Assembly (NCBI GenBank): GCA_017999615.1
Contig: JAGNLM010000005.1
Location: 1 to 64,000 of the forward strand
DNA: 64,000 nucleotides
Source: Gammaproteobacteria bacterium
GTDB lineage: Bacteria > Pseudomonadota > Gammaproteobacteria > JAABTG01
Direction of reading: 5' to 3'
The notes under the pieces were generated by a model, which did not search any database, was not told where the DNA came from, and worked only from the letters and a program-made list of their open reading frames with translations. This document shows, piece after piece, positions 48,453 through 56,191 of the stretch. The translations under genes were made by a program, and so were the position numbers. Position 1 is the stretch's first letter. The number at the start of each line of letters is the position of its first letter.

Positions 48453-48982
48453 TGCGCACGCTGCCGCTGAATCGCGTCTACCAACTCATCGAGCCGGGGC
48501 CCGTGGTGCTGCTGACCACCCGCCACCGGGACCGGGCCAACGTCATGGCCATGTCCTGGCATATGATGGTGGACTTCGAGCCGCCGCAGTTGGCCTGCAT
48601 CGTCAGCGACGCGAACGAGTCCTTCGTCCCCCTGCGCAAGACCGGGGAGTGCGTCATCGCCATCCCGCCGGCCGGGCTCGCACGCACCGTCGTGGACATC
48701 GGCAACTGCTCGGGTCGTGACGTGGACAAATTCGCGCGCTTCGGCCTCGACACGAAGCCCGCCCGCCGGGTCGCGGCGCCGCTCCTTCCCGCCTGCATCG
48801 CGAACCTGGAGTGCCGGGTCATCGAGACCCGGCTGGTGAACGCCTTCTGCCTGTTCGTCCTGGAGGTCCTGCAGGCCTGGGTCGAGCCCCGGTTGCGGGG
48901 CGAGAAGACCCTGCACCACCAGGGCCATGGCCGTTTCGTGCTGGACGGGGACATCGTCCGGGTCCCCTCCCGCAAGCCCTGA
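48452..48982 (+). CDS. Flavin reductase family protein (FMN-binding split barrel)
   Basis: 176 residues of the flavin-reductase-like split-barrel family (VVLLTTRHRDRANVMAMSWHM, CIVSDANESFVPLRKTGECVIA). Binds FMN and either reduces free flavin for a partner or acts as a flavin carrier. ATG at 48452 overlaps the pdxA stop by one base, with GGAGGG about 9 bases upstream; GTG 48449 is an alternative. The antisense SulP frame runs 164 bases into this gene. Confidence 0.88.
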   Translation: MRTLPLNRVYQLIEPGPVVLLTTRHRDRANVMAMSWHMMVDFEPPQLACIVSDANESFVPLRKTGECVIAIPPAGLARTVVDIGNCSGRDVDKFARFGLDTKPARRVAAPLLPACIANLECRVIETRLVNAFCLFVLEVLQAWVEPRLRGEKTLHHQGHGRFVLDGDIVRVPSRKP

Positions 48983-50804
48983 CCCCGGGGCGTTGCGCGC
49001 ACTCGCGGAAGATCCGCACCCGGCAGCGGCGGCAGACCTCGGGGTCCAGCCTCGGCACGATGCTCGCGATCGCTTCGGTCTTGCCTCCGAAGAGGTTCCC
49101 GCTCCCGATCTCCTCCAGGTAGCCGCCACGCGCGAGGAGGTCCCGGACGCCGGGCTTGGGGCGGATCAGGTACAGGCCGCCCCCCCGGGCCCTGCGGCGC
49201 TCGGCCTCCGCGGACAGGAACTCGGCGCCCGCGACGTCGACGAAGTTGATGCCGGTGGCGACGACCGCCAGGTGCTTGCAGGAGGGCGGGTCCGCCTCGA
49301 TGCGGCGGAACGTCTCGGCCACGTGGCTGACCGCTCCGAAGAAGATCGAGCCGTCGAGCCGGACGATCCCCAGTTGCGGGCACTCGGGCAGCGACGGGTC
49401 GGTCACGAAGTGCCGGTCGGGGCTGCGCGGGTCCGGGACCCGGGGCAGGATGGTGGGGCGGGAGGTCCGGCTAAGGTACAGCACCAGGGAAAGCAGCACG
49501 CCGGCGAGGATCGCGAACTCGAGGTCCAGCACCAGGGTCGCCCCGAACGTGACCCCCATCACCGCCGTCTCCTGGCGGCTGGTCCGCACGACCCGGCGGA
49601 TGTGGTGGAAGTCGAGAAGGCCCCAGGCCACGAGGAAGAGCAGGCCGGCCATCGCCGCGTGGGGAAGGTAGGTGCCGAGCGGGGCGACGGCCCAGAGTAC
49701 GACCACCAGAGAGACCCCCGCGAACACGGCCGCCAGGGGGGTGCGCGCGCCGGCCTCGAAGTTGACGGCGCTGCGATTGAAGGAACCGGTGGCGACGTAG
49801 CCGGAGAAGAGGCTGCCGGCGAGGTTCGAGAGCCCCTGGCCGATGAACTCCTGGCTGCCGTCGATGTGCTGGTGCGTGCGCAAGGCGAGTGCGCGGGCGA
49901 TGGAAACGGCCTCCGTGAGGGCGAACAGGGTGGTCGCGAGCGCGGCCGGCGCGAGCGCCCGGATGGTCTCGAGGGAGAGGTCCGGAAGCGAGAGCGGCGG
50001 CAGGCCGCTTGGCAGGGCGCTGAGGGTCCCGATGCCGGTGTGCGCCGGGCCGAAGACGGCGTTCAGCAGCAGGGCCGAGAGACTGCCCGCGAGCATGGCG
50101 ACCACGAGGTGGGAAACGCGTCGCCACCAGTGGCGTGCGAGGAGACCGCTCACGAGGGTCAGGACGGCGACCGCGGTTACGAAGGGATTCACCTCCCGCG
50201 CTCGCGACAGGAGCGTCCCCAGCACCCCGTGGACCGGCAGGCCCCGGGGCACGTCGACCCCGAAGAAGGTTCCGGCCTGTTGGGCGGCGATGAGGAGCGC
50301 CGCACCCGCGGTGAAGCCCAGCACCACCGGGTGTGAAATGAAGTTGGTGAGCGCCCCCAGCCGTGCGAGGCCCATGGCCAGCTCGATCGCCCCCACCAGG
50401 AGGGTCAGCGTGAGCGCGAGGCGGACGTAGTCGGCGCTGCCCGGCTCGGCGAGGCCGCTCAGGCTGGAGAAGACGACGAGCGAGGCTGTCGTGGTCGGCC
50501 CGGACACCAGGTGCCAGGACGAGCCCCAGAGCGCCGCCACGATGGCCGGCACCATCCCGGCGTAGAGCCCGTACTCCGGGGGCATGCCGGCAATGGTGGC
50601 GAGGGCGACCCCCTGGGGGAGCACGACGACGGCGCCGGTGAGGCCGGCCGCCAGGTCGGAGCGCAGGGTTCCGGCGTCGATCCGATCACGCCAGGCGAGA
50701 AAGGGGAACAGCCGCGCGAGCCAGCGCCGCCCGTGCCGATGGGGGACCGCGCTGGGGCGGGGTGGCGGGACGGGCGCCTGCACCTCGGGGGGAGAATGGG
50801 ACAT
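48819..50804 (-). CDS. SulP-family anion transporter with STAS domain
   Basis: 661 residues. SulP core with about 12-14 helices (LPQGVALATIAGMPPEYGLYAGM is the family signature; LVSGPTTTASLVVFSSL), then a cytoplasmic STAS domain (LGIVRLDGSIFFGAVSHVAE ... GINFVDVAGAEFLS). Carries sulfate, bicarbonate or similar anions. GGAGAG lies 5 bases ahead of ATG 50804. The last 55 or so residues (after RIFRECAQRPG) are Gly/Pro/Arg-rich and read antisense to the flavin reductase gene, so they look like readthrough after loss of an earlier stop. Divergent from the sulfur oxygenase reductase gene, which suggests sulfate as a possible substrate. Confidence 0.9.
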   Translation of the reverse strand: MSHSPPEVQAPVPPPRPSAVPHRHGRRWLARLFPFLAWRDRIDAGTLRSDLAAGLTGAVVVLPQGVALATIAGMPPEYGLYAGMVPAIVAALWGSSWHLVSGPTTTASLVVFSSLSGLAEPGSADYVRLALTLTLLVGAIELAMGLARLGALTNFISHPVVLGFTAGAALLIAAQQAGTFFGVDVPRGLPVHGVLGTLLSRAREVNPFVTAVAVLTLVSGLLARHWWRRVSHLVVAMLAGSLSALLLNAVFGPAHTGIGTLSALPSGLPPLSLPDLSLETIRALAPAALATTLFALTEAVSIARALALRTHQHIDGSQEFIGQGLSNLAGSLFSGYVATGSFNRSAVNFEAGARTPLAAVFAGVSLVVVLWAVAPLGTYLPHAAMAGLLFLVAWGLLDFHHIRRVVRTSRQETAVMGVTFGATLVLDLEFAILAGVLLSLVLYLSRTSRPTILPRVPDPRSPDRHFVTDPSLPECPQLGIVRLDGSIFFGAVSHVAETFRRIEADPPSCKHLAVVATGINFVDVAGAEFLSAEAERRRARGGGLYLIRPKPGVRDLLARGGYLEEIGSGNLFGGKTEAIASIVPRLDPEVCRRCRVRIFRECAQRPGVRACGRGPGRCPRPARNGHGPGGAGSSRPATGARPRPAGPPGRTGRRRSPAGSR

Positions 50805-51105
50805 GGGTACTCTCCGGTCTTCCTCGAGAGCGCCTGCGCGCGGGCCTGCGCTCCCGGGCACCTCGGGAAACGATTCTGACCGATTTCCCGAAGTCTAGCC
50901 CCGCAGGCCGAAGCGGCGCGTCGCGATTGCCTCGCGGCGGGTGTCCCTATAGCCTTGGCCCCACGAGCCTTCGAACGGTCCGCGCGGTGTGCGGGGCATC
51001 CCCCGGCGGTGCGGCTCGTCATGGCCCGCCGCAACCGCGTGCAGGGTGGTGCCGGTCCCGCCGGGGCCGGTCGTGTGGGTTTACCCCTGGAGGGAGGAGA
51101 GTCGG
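50805..51105. promoter_or_regulatory. Divergent control region, SulP transporter / sulfur oxygenase reductase
   Basis: 301 bases without a supported gene. A weak promoter candidate towards SOR is TTGCCT (50927-50932) with TATAGC (50948-50953), spacing 15. A very strong Shine-Dalgarno, AGGGAGGAGA, lies at 51091-51100. No clear operator repeats were seen. Confidence 0.35.
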
Positions 51106-52146
51106 ATGACACACAAGAGCAGCGACCTGGAGCGCAGGAAATTTCTCAAGATGACTGCGATGGCGGCCGGCGGTGCGACGATGATGGGTGTGAGCGGGCG
51201 GGGCATGGCGGCCCCGCAGGCGCCGGACGAGCCCGACAGCCCCATCTATCTGGCCCTGAACATCTCGCGGGTGCTCAACAACGAAGAGAGTTTCCGGCTG
51301 ATGCGCGAGGTGGGGCCCAAGGTGTGCATCACCACGGCCAGCCACCCCGGTTTCCTCGGCTTCCAGGCCAACGTGCAGACCGGCGCCATGTCCATCGCCG
51401 GCCGCTACGGCGGGGCCAGGGTCGACATGGACAAGGAGCTCAACCCCATCGGGAATTACCAGTACACCATGTGGAAGACGTGGCAGGACCACGACGACTT
51501 CCACAGCCGCCAGTTCAAGCGGGTCTTCGAGCTCTGCACGGCGTGCCTGCCCACCGTGGTCGAGGGACCGTGGGAGCCCGTGTACCGGGTCGTCAAGGCG
51601 AGGATCCCCCAGGTCCGCTCCATGGGCGAGATCACGAAGCTCGCCCAGGACCTCCAGCAGGGCAAGGATTTCGTGCGCTTCGCCACCCCTGGGCGCTGCG
51701 TCACGCTGGCTCCCCACACCGTCAAGCCCGGGACGGAGGCTGCCTTCGAGAAGGGCGTGGTGGAGACCCTGGAGGCCCTCTCGGACTCCACGGGGTTCCT
51801 GGGCTACATGGTGCTCAAGCAGATGGGCGTCTGCGCCCTCGGCAGTTTGATGCTGGACCCCGAGTCCATGGCCCAGGCTCTGATGACGCTCGGCGCCAAC
51901 CCGCCGGACAACCCCAGGCCGGCCTTTGCCACTCCCGAGGCCCGGCCCACCCCGCCCGAGTACCTGGTACACACCGAGTGGGATTCGCCCGAGCTGGCCA
52001 AGCTCGGTTTCGCCAAGGTGCTGGTCAACCACCGGATCCGGAAGATCCACGACGACGGGGTCATGGCCCACCTCATCAAGGGCCCTTACATCAAGTTCTT
52101 CCGTCCCATGATGGAAGAGCCCGGCTGGCGCGACCATCTGCGCTGA
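51106..52146 (+). CDS. sor: Sulfur oxygenase reductase with predicted Tat signal peptide
   Basis: 346 residues. SOR disproportionates elemental sulfur with O2 to sulfite, thiosulfate and sulfide at a mononuclear iron site. From PIYLALNISRV on, the sequence follows the archaeal enzyme; C74 (GPKVC), H129, H133, E157, C144 and C147 correspond to Acidianus C31, H86, H90, E114, C101 and C104, all shifted by exactly 43. The extra N-terminus reads LERRKFLKMTAMAAGG, a twin-arginine motif (R10-R11) plus hydrophobic run and a possible cleavage site near GMAAPQA. The start at 51106 has the best Shine-Dalgarno of the region; an internal ATG at 51205 would give a cytoplasmic form of usual length. Divergent from SulP; a small basic protein follows. 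Confidence 0.93.
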   Translation: MTHKSSDLERRKFLKMTAMAAGGATMMGVSGRGMAAPQAPDEPDSPIYLALNISRVLNNEESFRLMREVGPKVCITTASHPGFLGFQANVQTGAMSIAGRYGGARVDMDKELNPIGNYQYTMWKTWQDHDDFHSRQFKRVFELCTACLPTVVEGPWEPVYRVVKARIPQVRSMGEITKLAQDLQQGKDFVRFATPGRCVTLAPHTVKPGTEAAFEKGVVETLEALSDSTGFLGYMVLKQMGVCALGSLMLDPESMAQALMTLGANPPDNPRPAFATPEARPTPPEYLVHTEWDSPELAKLGFAKVLVNHRIRKIHDDGVMAHLIKGPYIKFFRPMMEEPGWRDHLR

Positions 52147-52166: not shown

Positions 52167-52370
52167 ATGGCAACCCGCAAGCCCAATTACGCATTCGAGC
52201 GCAACCAACGCACCAAGGCCAAGGCCGCCAAACGCCAGGCCAAACAACAGGCGAAAACCGAGGCGAGGCGCCGCGAGACTCCGGGCGAGGCGTCGGGTGC
52301 CCCGTCCGCGGAGCACGAGTCCGGCGGCGACTCGGCCGAGGACGAGGGTGGGGAGTCCGGGGGCGGGTAG
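52167..52370 (+). CDS. Small charged protein downstream of SOR
   Basis: 67 residues: a Lys/Arg-rich helix (RNQRTKAKAAKRQAKQQAK) followed by an acidic Gly/Ser/Glu tail. AAAGGAG lies about 8 bases ahead of ATG 52167, and the gene starts 20 bases after sor, so the two are probably cotranscribed. The start 'MATRKPNYAFERNQR' resembles a small conserved family of unknown function widespread in proteobacteria. It may bind RNA or ribosomes; no firm role. Confidence 0.8.
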   Translation: MATRKPNYAFERNQRTKAKAAKRQAKQQAKTEARRRETPGEASGAPSAEHESGGDSAEDEGGESGGG

Positions 52371-52478: not shown

Positions 52479-52985
52479 ATGACCCGCCCTTTCAACGTGC
52501 TGTTCCTGTGCACCGGGAACTCGGCCCGCTCCATCATGGCCGAGGCCATCCTGAAAGCCCTTGGGGCGGGCAGGTTTCACGCCTTCAGTGCGGGCAGTTA
52601 CCCGACCGGCAAGGTCAACCCGCTCGCCCTGGAGCAGACCCGTGAGCGTCTCGGGGCGCCGACCGATGGGTACCGCAGCAAGAGCTGGGACGAATTGGCC
52701 GCGCCCGGGGGACCTGCGCTCGACTTCGTGTTCACCGTCTGCGACGACGCGGCGAACGAGGTCTGCCCGGTCTGGCCGGGCCATCCCGTGACGGCCCACT
52801 GGGGCGTGCCGGACCCTGCGGCGGTGGAGGGCTCCGACGAGGAGAAGCGTCTCGCGTTTGCCCGGGCGTATCAGCAATTGTACGAGCGGATCCAGGGCTT
52901 CGTGGCCCTCCCGGTGGACGAGCTGGACCCCCTCGCGCTCAAGCGTGAGTTGAGCGCCATCGGCCGGCGCCGGGGCTCACCATGA
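52479..52985 (+). CDS. arsC: Arsenate reductase ArsC, LMW-phosphatase/thioredoxin type
   Basis: 168 residues. P-loop CTGNSARS near the N-terminus (catalytic Cys, CX5R), and a second redox pair in VCDDAANEVCP with the 7-residue spacing of the Cys82/Cys89 pair of thioredoxin-coupled ArsC. Reduces arsenate to arsenite. ATG 52479 follows a GAGG-type purine run. Overlaps arsP by 4 bases; a small thioredoxin-like protein two genes on could be its reductant. Confidence 0.92.
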   Translation: MTRPFNVLFLCTGNSARSIMAEAILKALGAGRFHAFSAGSYPTGKVNPLALEQTRERLGAPTDGYRSKSWDELAAPGGPALDFVFTVCDDAANEVCPVWPGHPVTAHWGVPDPAAVEGSDEEKRLAFARAYQQLYERIQGFVALPVDELDPLALKRELSAIGRRRGSP

Positions 52986-54043
52986 CCTGGCAGGGTGAGG
53001 GCACCGCCCGCCTGCGTGACCTGCCCCGGCGGCCGGCCTGGCTCCTGGGGCTGCCGCTCGCCGGTGCGCTCTGGTGGCTCGCCTACGTCCACCTCACGGA
53101 CTTTGCGGACGCCACCGTCGCCCTGCTCGGCCTCTCCCGCGCCACCCGCTTCGGCGAGGCCGTGCACTTCTTCCTCTACGACGCGCCGAAGGTGTTGCTC
53201 CTGCTGGTCGGGGTCGTCTTCGTCATGGGCGTGGTGCAGACGTTCTTTGCCCCGGAGCGCACCCGCGCTCTGCTGGCGGGCCGCAGGCTCGGGGTCGGCA
53301 ATTCCCTGGCGGCGCTGCTCGGCATCGTCACCCCGTTCTGTTCCTGCTCGGCGGTCCCGCTCTTCATCGGCTTCCTCTCCGCCGGGGTTCCCCTGGGGGT
53401 CACCTTCTCGTTCCTGATCTCCGCGCCGATGGTCAACGAGGTCGCGCTCGCGCTGCTGCTGGGACTCTTCGGCTGGAAGGTGGCAGCGCTCTACCTGGGG
53501 CTGGGGCTGACGGTCGCTGTCCTCGCCGGGCTCGTGATCGGTCGCCTGCGCATGGAGCGCCACCTGGAAGACTGGGTGCGCGCGATCCACCTGGGTGAGG
53601 CCGCGGCCCCTCAGGGAGCCGCCCACACGTGGGTCGAGCGCTTCGAGGCCGGTGGCCGACACCTGCGCGAGATCGTGGGCCGCGTGTGGCCCTACGTCCT
53701 GGTGGGCATCGGGCTTGGCGCCGGGATCCACGGCTACGTGCCCGAGGACTTCCTCGCCTCGTTCATGGGCGCGGACGTGTGGTGGGCGGTGCCGGCGGCG
53801 GTGTTGCTCGGGGTGCCCATGTACACCAACGCCGCCGGCATCATCCCGGTGGTGGAGGCGCTGATCGGCAAGGGCGCGGCGCTCGGCACGACGCTCGCCT
53901 TCATGATGAGCGTGATCGCGCTCTCGGCGCCGGAGATCCTGATTCTGCGCAAGGTGCTGCGCTGGCCGCTGATTGCCGCGTTCGTCGGGGTGGTGGCCTT
54001 CGGGGTGCTGGTCGTGGGCTACGTGTTCAACGCGGTGCTGTGA
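52982..54043 (+). CDS. arsP: Permease ArsP/DUF318 family
   Basis: 353 residues, eight or more transmembrane helices. The signature TPFCSCSAVPLFIGFLSAG with two cysteines is the DUF318/ArsP motif, repeated in weaker form in the second half (GVPMYTNAAGIIPVVEAL). Family members export trivalent organoarsenicals or arsenite. ATG 52982 overlaps the arsC stop by 4 bases. No acr3 or arsB is present, so this permease is probably the exit route of the cluster. Confidence 0.88.
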   Translation: MTWQGEGTARLRDLPRRPAWLLGLPLAGALWWLAYVHLTDFADATVALLGLSRATRFGEAVHFFLYDAPKVLLLLVGVVFVMGVVQTFFAPERTRALLAGRRLGVGNSLAALLGIVTPFCSCSAVPLFIGFLSAGVPLGVTFSFLISAPMVNEVALALLLGLFGWKVAALYLGLGLTVAVLAGLVIGRLRMERHLEDWVRAIHLGEAAAPQGAAHTWVERFEAGGRHLREIVGRVWPYVLVGIGLGAGIHGYVPEDFLASFMGADVWWAVPAAVLLGVPMYTNAAGIIPVVEALIGKGAALGTTLAFMMSVIALSAPEILILRKVLRWPLIAAFVGVVAFGVLVVGYVFNAVL

Positions 54044-54056
54044 AGGAGAAACGACA

Positions 54057-54293
54057 GTGAAGCGCATCGAGGTGCTGGGAGCGGGGTGCCGCAACTGCGA
54101 GATTACCCACAATGTGATCCGCGAGGCGGCCCGTCAGGCGGGGGTGGAGGTCCAGTTGGAGAAGGTGACGGACCTCGCCCGGATCGTGAGCTACGGCATC
54201 CTGCAGACCCCGGGTGTGGCGATTGACGGCAAGGTGGTGCACTCGGGGGGGATCCCGGGTCCCGACACGGTGCGGGGCTGGCTGACCGACTGA
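54057..54293 (+). CDS. Small thioredoxin-like redox protein
   Basis: 78 residues, MTH895-type mini-thioredoxin: beta-alpha-beta start KRIEVLGAGCRNCE with a CxxC pair, cis-proline region LQTPGVAIDGKVVHSG. AAGGAG lies 9 bases ahead of GTG 54057. Families of this kind are encoded next to DUF318 permeases and may supply electrons to ArsC or hand thiol-bound arsenic to the permease. Last gene of the arsenic cluster and of the ordered core before the decayed island. Confidence 0.88.
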   Translation: MKRIEVLGAGCRNCEITHNVIREAARQAGVEVQLEKVTDLARIVSYGILQTPGVAIDGKVVHSGGIPGPDTVRGWLTD

Positions 54294-54574
54294 ATGGTGA
54301 TTCGCCACGCCCGGCTACTCCCTACACCTCGGTCTGCTCCGAGATCTTGAGCGCATCCCCTGCCGCTCCCTCGCCTCGGCCTCGAAACTGAGTCTCGGCT
54401 CCGGTGAACCTCAGGTCCCACCGGGTGATCTCAGAGCTGGCATGGCTGCGCGCCCCTCGAGACGCTGGTACCCGCTCTCCTGCTGGCCGACAATCCTCGA
54501 AACAACAAGCGCGGGCTACCTCAGCGCGACGGAAGCCCGGCGCATTCGCACCGGCGCTCCGCTGGGGGCGCGTT

Positions 54575-55782
54575 CCCGGGAGGGGTCAGCGGCAAGACCT
54601 ACGCCCTGATCGCGCTCTCCCACGTCGCCCGCCGCGCCGCCCGCGTGCCGAACGTGAGGGAGTTCGTCGACCCCGGCCTGCTGCCCACCGGGGCGGTGCG
54701 CATCGCGGCCTTCGACGGCGAGAACGCCGATCCCTCCAACGGTCGTCCCCTCGGCGAAGGGGTGCGCGCCTACACCCCCTGGGGCGAGCTGGCCTACGCG
54801 CTCGCGGGGCGCGCGGGCTACGAGCGGGTGCGCCGCAGCGACGAGGAGGGCGGCGCTCGTCTACACGCTCGCGATAGGCAAGGGCGGGGCCGCCATCGAC
54901 GCCTACAGCGCCGAGAACCGCTTCATCGCTGACTGCATGGCCGAGGCCGAGAGCGTGTCGGCCCGCAAAGCGGCGCTGCTCGATCCGACCGAGGAGGACG
55001 AGACCGTCAAGGTGCTGCGTCGCCGGCTCTTCGTCGAGGTGGACGACGCCCGCGCCGCCGAAGTGATCGCCCCCTACCAGCACCTCTGGGAGAGCCACCG
55101 CGAGCACCTGGCGGTCTACGGCGCCACCGACAAGCGCCTCGATCTCTTCCGCAGCGGCTTTCCGCTCCACCCGGAGCTGATCGACACCCTGCGCGAGAAG
55201 ACCTCGACCCTGGACAACTTCCAGCGGGTGCGAGGGATGCTGCGGCTCCTCGCCCGCACCGTGGCGCGGATGTGGGCCGAGCGCCCGCAGGACGCCTACG
55301 CCATCCACCTGCACCACGTCGACCCGGGCTACGAGCCCATCCGCCAGGAGATCGTGACGCGCCTCGGCCAGCGCGCCCTGGCGCCCGCCATCAAGGCGGA
55401 CGTGGCGGCGGTCGCGGGTGACCAGCCGGCGCTCGCCCAAGAGCTGGACGCCCAGCACTACGCCGGGATGCCGCCCTACGGGTCCTACGTGGCGAGGGTG
55501 ATCCTGTTCCAAACGCTGGCCTACAACGAGCCCCTGAAGGGTGCCGCCCGCGAGGAGGTGCGCTACGCCATCCTCTCCCCGGGCGTGGACCCGAGCTTCA
55601 TCGACGACGCCATCCGCCGCCTGGTCGAGACCTCGGCCTACCTGGACGACCGCCCGAACGTCCCGCTGCGCTTCCTGACCGAAGCCAACCTGACCCAGAT
55701 GGTCCGGCGCCAGGAGCAGACGGTGGACCGGGGCGAGGTGCGGGTTCAGCTGAACGACCGCATCTCGGTAGCCTCGAAGTAG
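54575..55782 (+). pseudogene. Broken DUF499-family ATPase gene
   Basis: Two pieces of one large AAA-type ATPase in different frames. 54575-54855 reads SGKTYALIALSHVAR ... AAFDGENADPSNGRPLGEG ... RAYTPWGELAYALAGRAGYE, the P-loop region of DUF499 proteins. At about 54857 an internal segment is gone and the frame changes: ALVYTLAIGKGGAAIDAY leads into MAEAESVSARKAALLDPTEE and on to QEQTVDRGEVRVQLNDR, ending at 55782. The Walker A glycines are altered (FPGGVSGKT), and the normal N-terminus and C-terminal part are missing. Intact members (about 1000 residues) are encoded with DUF1156 methylases and helicases in putative phage-defence loci. The longest surviving frame is 54937-55782. Confidence 0.8.
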
Positions 55783-55795
55783 GACTGGCTCTGTC

Positions 55796-56191
55796 GTGGT
55801 CGTCTGCGGTCAGGGTCACCCGGTCGCGTGGTCGGTGGACCGCCTGGGGCGCAGCCTGCAGGACCTGGTGGGGTTCCTGAACGAGGTCCACGCCTTTGGC
55901 ATCGACCTCTCCCTGCACCAGCAGGGCGTCGATACCACCACCCCCTCCGGCAAGGCTCTGTTCCAGATGCTCGGGGTGTTCGCGGAGTTCGAGCGGGCGC
56001 TCATCCAGGAGCGGTTGAAGGCCGGGCTGCAGCGGGCGAGGATGGAGGGTAAGCGGCTCGGGCGGCCCAGGGTGTCGGCCAAGGTCGAGGAGCAGATCCG
56101 GGAGGCGCGGGCGAAGGGCGCCGGCATCGGCAAGATCGCCCGCACGCTGGGTGTCGGGGTGTCGGTGGTGCAGCGGGTGCTGGCGGCGTGA
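55796..56191 (+). pseudogene. Serine recombinase remnant (N-terminus missing)
   Basis: 131-residue frame. From WSVDRLGRSLQDLVGFLNEV through GKALFQMLGVFAEFERALIQERLKAG and GKRLGRPRV to the C-terminal helix-turn-helix (GIGKIARTLGVGVSVVQRVL) it is a resolvase/invertase. The first 60 or so residues, including the catalytic serine in the YxRVSTxxQ motif, are absent; the frame starts with unrelated MVVCGQGHP. It cannot catalyse recombination. Directly follows the DUF499 remnant. Confidence 0.85.

Follow-up and report, generated by a model that had tools for sequence, protein, structure and literature searches.

Where in the cell does a sulfur oxygenase reductase (SOR) act when its gene begins with what looks like an export signal? 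The question is raised by a gene in a 64,000-nucleotide stretch of gammaproteobacterial DNA (contig JAGNLM010000005.1, positions 1 to 64,000; hereafter the window). In three papers (PMC12345210, PMC11323534, PMC7398979) SOR is described as cytoplasmic, in agreement with the background given in the original prediction, which was made from the letters alone and proposed that this particular SOR is exported by the twin-arginine translocation (Tat) system. Our analysis supports export as a prediction, from a positive call by the curated model TIGR01409 and from seven homologues that share the N-terminal extension. We consider it quite likely that the gene specifies a genuine SOR of the Desulfobacterota-type branch with a Tat signal, and that the protein would fold and bind iron inside the cell, be exported and act in the periplasm upstream of the Sox system. 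The following features are relevant; SORs bearing the extension are called Tat-SORs.

51089..51099, plus strand: Shine-Dalgarno-like sequence GGAGGGAGGAG ahead of the long start, read from the sequence, with equivalents before the long starts of other Tat-SORs
51106..52146, plus strand: gene for a Tat-type SOR of 346 amino acids (PF07682, 445.9 bits; SOR fold)
51106..51210, plus strand: predicted Tat signal peptide, residues 1-35 (TIGR01409 above cutoff; RR at residues 10-11 in eight of eight Tat-SORs)
51211..51240, plus strand: linker of about ten residues, APQAPDEPDS, ahead of the SOR core (alignment)
51241..52143, plus strand: SOR catalytic core with C74, H129, H133, C144, C147 and E157 (profile match, alignment)

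The gene encodes an SOR with an intact catalytic core

Translation of the open reading frame (ORF) at 51106-52146 is free of stops and gives 346 amino acids. The PF07682 (SOR) match, at 445.9 bits against a cutoff of 25, covers residues 47-342 and nearly the whole model. The best solved relative is the SOR of Halothiobacillus neapolitanus (6qpa), and the fold also matches the Acidianus SOR structure. The iron ligands H129, H133 and E157 correspond to H86, H90 and E114 of the Acidianus enzyme, and the cysteines C74, C144 and C147 to its C31, C101 and C104; the constant offset of 43 is the one originally predicted for an intact core, and all six residues are invariant in a 23-sequence alignment. 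According to PMC7398979, Cys31 is essential for SOR and Cys101 and Cys104 are accessory. The chimney positions M130, F133 and F141, read by hand from the alignment, are M173, I176 and L183 here, that is, hydrophobic with both phenylalanines replaced. The NCBIfam equivalog model NF047630 (SulOxRed) gave 309.1 bits, under its 400-bit cutoff; since the solved H. neapolitanus SOR itself scores 291, this cutoff leaves out bacterial SORs, and membership is claimed for PF07682 and not for the equivalog.

The H. neapolitanus (6qpa) and Acidianus ambivalens (2cb2) enzymes share family, fold, iron ligands and the three cysteines with the SOR of the window, but they have no Tat extension and count as cytoplasmic, and the H. 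neapolitanus type forms a separate branch. A weak structural likeness links the SOR barrel to chlorite dismutase and ABM-type alpha-beta barrel proteins, which are heme or cofactor-free enzymes without the SOR iron site. The gene is the sole SOR of the host genome (2.47 Mb, 98.98% complete, 0.38% contaminated). Contamination or an assembly artefact was rejected on these values and on the presence of the same gene, with the same SulP-family neighbour, in a second species.

A Tat-type signal is conserved among relatives

Residues 1-45, which precede the first strand of the core, read MTHKSSDLE-RR-KFLKMTAMAAGGATMMGVSGRGMAAPQAPDEPDS. They include the Tat motif ERRKFLK at residues 9-15 (pattern S/T-RRxFLK), followed from about residue 16 by a hydrophobic stretch and, after residue 35, by a candidate cleavage site, GMA-A, judged by eye and with proline next. 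The best 15-residue mean hydropathy, 1.04 from residue 16, is the lowest of the eight Tat-SORs described below. The TAT_signal_seq model TIGR01409 scored 18.9 against a cutoff of 16.7. By this call and by the conservation described below, the extension is a credible Tat signal, with the twin-arginine motif of Tat substrates and a hydrophobic stretch, both of which the original prediction had pointed out. AlphaFold models a helix at 6-20 and assigns low confidence to most of the extension; confidence is higher from about residue 41. A loose Tat motif arose in 186 of 200,000 shuffles of this N-terminus (about 0.1%), a figure that concerns one sequence only; position-exact conservation among relatives is the stronger evidence.

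Homologues were gathered by scanning genome contigs and searching about 1000 genomes, which yielded a 23-row alignment plus fragments. Eight sequences are Tat-SORs: that of the window (genome G000), that of a sister species in the same genus (G003, 97% identical), L002, L003, L035, L004, L015 and the fragment L039. Most of the relatives come from another bacterial group than the host, and Tat-SOR genomes that have a name are metagenome-assembled genomes (MAGs). All eight carry RR at residues 10-11 within an extension of 43-47 amino acids and share the motif [E/A/N/D]RR.F[L/M/I][K/R]. The 20 positions after RR hold no acidic residue in seven and a single one in the eighth, and AxA-like sites, read by eye, lie some 7-12 residues before the core. 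TAT_signal_seq exceeded its cutoff in L020, L003 and L015, with L004 just below, and gave no match in the three non-Tat relatives scanned. Homologues therefore do not all begin in the PIYLALN region, since seven others have the extension with RR at 10-11.

The closest signal-less relatives are the non-Tat Desulfobacterota SORs L005-L011, which are 66-71% identical and start directly before the core with a Shine-Dalgarno-like site of their own. The close non-Tat relatives and all other sampled gammaproteobacterial SORs begin at short starts, preceded by ribosome-binding sites that belong to those starts. The comparison of N-termini suggested in the original prediction showed that the Halothiobacillus type and the SORs of other gammaproteobacteria are indeed without the extension, though as members of another SOR branch.

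Translation is predicted to begin at the long start

The strong Shine-Dalgarno sequence that had been cited for the long start was confirmed in that GGAGGGAGGAG sits a few bases 5' of the ATG at 51106 and has equivalents in other Tat-SORs. Tat-SOR genes have such a site immediately ahead of the long start, and non-Tat genes have one immediately ahead of the short start; because each set has its own, long and short starts are both credible. An upstream GTG at 50989 was rejected as the start: homologues begin nine residues before RR, and Shine-Dalgarno-like sites are found there.

It had also been proposed that an in-frame internal ATG at 51205 (Met34) could yield a second, cytoplasmic form. The sister species has GTG (Val) at this codon, and most other Tat-SORs show nothing equivalent. 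The second form was rejected since the codon is not conserved. The same ATG, along with the fact that all non-Tat SORs begin in that region, is what would favor a misassigned start, with translation from Met34 or later and a signal that is never made. That the strong Shine-Dalgarno sequence precedes the long start, that most other Tat-SORs are without a start codon at the internal position and that the long start stands nine residues before RR in eight of eight makes this explanation very improbable.

Cleaved signal, anchor or vestigial leader

Some results weigh against the export of a cleaved SOR. The Pfam Tat model PF10518 scored 15.7, under its cutoff of 22.7, and L002 fell under the TIGR01409 cutoff. 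The cleavage site is not of the best AxA type, being weaker than the AxA of L002, L004 and L039. L005 falls in the same group as the Tat-SORs without a signal, and no TatC match was found in G008, the MAG of L004, which may be incomplete. Moreover, we know of no precedent in the SOR family for exporting subunits that later form a 24-mer.

The low Pfam score and the MAG without a TatC match would suit an extension that is translated with no role in export, a vestigial or fortuitous RR leader on a cytoplasmic SOR. So would the proportions of amino-acid change between the two species of the genus. G000 and G003 have the same RR motif, and the 45 codons of the extension show four nonsynonymous and six synonymous codon changes, as compared to six and 39 in the roughly 300 codons of the core. 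Faster change of the extension is expected, since a signal peptide usually evolves more quickly than its cargo enzyme; these codon changes alone would not show constraint on the extension. Against a vestigial leader, eight sequences with identities as low as 67-69% have kept the RR position, the length, the hydrophobic stretch and the linker, and a functionless leader is not expected to retain RR.F[LMI][KR] while other residues vary. We regard a leader of this kind as unlikely.

About equally unlikely, in our estimate, is export without cleavage, in which the N-terminal segment would serve as a membrane anchor holding SOR on the periplasmic face. The weakness of GMA-A, with its following proline, would fit such an anchor. 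On the other hand, good AxA-like sites are present in relatives, at a corresponding spacing from the core, and the site of the sister species reads TVA-A. A sphere bearing 24 anchors, moreover, would be difficult to fit into one membrane.

The gene was probably acquired by transfer

In trees built from the core only, the SOR of the window groups with Desulfobacterota-type SORs, apart from the H. neapolitanus type found in other gammaproteobacteria, including another genus of the host's own family. Because the Tat forms group in this way, the gene was probably acquired by transfer into this gammaproteobacterium. The tree explains the presence of the signal by one or two changes, and it was not possible to reject a single Tat clade (p-AU 0.354). 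L005 retains the linker EPDSPIYLALN, which fits a secondary loss of its signal. The simplest reading is one gain of the signal in a Desulfobacterota-like lineage followed by horizontal transfer into the host genus, the deeper forks being modestly supported. SORs of Desulfobacterota are already known, making up 33 of 39 SOR-bearing MAGs in PMC12345210; what is new is the export signal on SOR, not the enzyme in that phylum. Text searches of the literature found no report of an exported, Tat or signal-peptide SOR, with many subscription papers outside their scope, so that an earlier report is possible. A divergent gammaproteobacterial SOR-like group (L046-L049), about 33% identical to the SOR of the window, lies near structure 9rdn (533 bits).

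Genomic context: Tat, Sox, Dsr and sulfur transporters

The host genome encodes TatC (G000 C7:89672-90301, 233 bits), as do six of the seven other Tat-SOR genomes. It also encodes SoxB, which starts with an RR signal (MSLTRRDFVRLVGFAGAAGML...), and gave no match to DsrB. SoxB, a periplasmic thiosulfohydrolase, thus resembles the SOR of the same genome in its RR-type signal and sulfur substrate; it differs in having an unrelated fold and chemistry and in acting on SoxYZ-bound sulfur. Most other Tat-SOR genomes have DsrB (G006, G007, G017, G288, G246), and none outside the host genus has SoxB over cutoff. G008, a single-record MAG, showed no match to TatC, Sulf_transp or full-length DsrB.

This distribution bears on an alternative in which SOR was exported to protect the periplasm of largely anaerobic Desulfobacterota by consuming O2 and excess polysulfide, the gammaproteobacterium having inherited the exported form by transfer. 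DsrB without SoxB outside the genus favors it, as does the statement in PMC12345210 that SOR requires O2 and is believed to conserve no energy by itself. The host, with SoxB and no DsrB match, suits a sulfur oxidiser instead, and no conserved oxidative-stress neighbourhood was seen beside Tat-SORs. Protection is a possible explanation, though a less probable one than a role upstream of Sox.

The host's single Sulf_transp (YeeE/YedE-type) protein is seleno_YedE, beside TusA/YedF-like and cysteine-desulfurase-family proteins. Since there is no other such protein, the host is without a polysulfide or thiosulfate importer of the Sulf_transp family, the family to which the importer search was confined. 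Sulf_transp genes adjoin SOR at four non-Tat loci, two complete (L008, L009) and two truncated (L013, L014), and at no Tat locus. The PF04143/DUF6691 transporter pairs directly upstream of SOR in L008 and L009 suggest that SOR is linked there to sulfur import. In L013 (3543-4010) and L014 (701-1147) the SOR genes comprise the C-terminal half only (core residues 147-297 and 166-297), and the N-terminal half was not found elsewhere in either locus. A strict rule that Tat-SOR genomes are without YeeE/YedE-type transporters is false, as PF04143 matches occur in G006, G007, G017, G288 and G246; the difference between Tat and non-Tat forms is one of gene adjacency only. Within small numbers and unequal flank lengths, this adjacency suggests two solutions to one problem: either sulfur is imported or the enzyme is exported.

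Upstream of the SOR gene lies a divergent transporter gene:

48819..50861, minus strand (ORF limits; the true start may be shorter): SulP-family anion transporter with STAS domain (PF00916, 303.1 bits)

The same arrangement is found in the sister species (L065 7041-8903). A conserved Tat-SOR operon was rejected, as SulP is the only neighbour found to be shared among Tat-SOR loci, and only inside the genus. Directly 3' of SOR, 52169-52370 could encode a Lys/Ala-rich protein of 67 residues with a good ribosome-binding site and no Pfam or NCBIfam match. Farther downstream (52479-56191) are genes for an arsenate-reductase-like protein, an ArsP-type permease and a thioredoxin, along with fragments of a DUF499 gene and of a resolvase gene. 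In the sister species a cation-efflux gene (L065 10647-11585) takes their place, so that the segment looks like an insertion or replacement.

A model for an exported SOR

From these genes we infer export, cleavage, assembly after export, the substrate and the fate of the products. Synthesised with a signal of about 35 residues, the subunit would fold and load iron in the cytoplasm. Tat carries folded, cofactor-loaded proteins, and a particle of 15.5 nm exceeds what it is thought to pass. Because a 24-mer of that size should exceed Tat capacity, export would precede final assembly, the translocase moving SOR as a monomer or small oligomer, with cleavage near A35. Known SORs are 24-mers of 15.5 nm (PMC7398979). 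The cage would then assemble outside, where SOR and O2 would convert sulfur to sulfite, thiosulfate and sulfide, and the host's periplasmic Sox system could use the thiosulfate. In Desulfobacterota with Dsr and without Sox the role may differ, possibly being the removal of O2 or polysulfide.

Implications

Judging from the conserved signal, shared by at least seven relatives, this whole SOR branch probably acts on the far side of the inner membrane, outside the cytoplasm and at the site of sulfur accumulation. The fuller proposal, that the branch shifted O2-dependent sulfur disproportionation to the periplasm by exporting iron-loaded subunits rather than bringing in polysulfide for a cytoplasmic enzyme, building the cage outside the inner membrane and feeding Sox directly, is tentative, with the chances for and against it close to balanced. 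With so short a signal, and with SORs that Escherichia coli is able to produce, the export claim is directly testable. It also raises the question of how a 24-subunit cage forms after Tat transport. Models of sulfur oxidation place SOR in the cytoplasm, and sulfur must then be brought inside. If this SOR is exported, both the site of O2-dependent sulfur disproportionation and the enzymes that use its products would change, and in metagenome gene counts the localisation of SOR should not be assumed from the family name.
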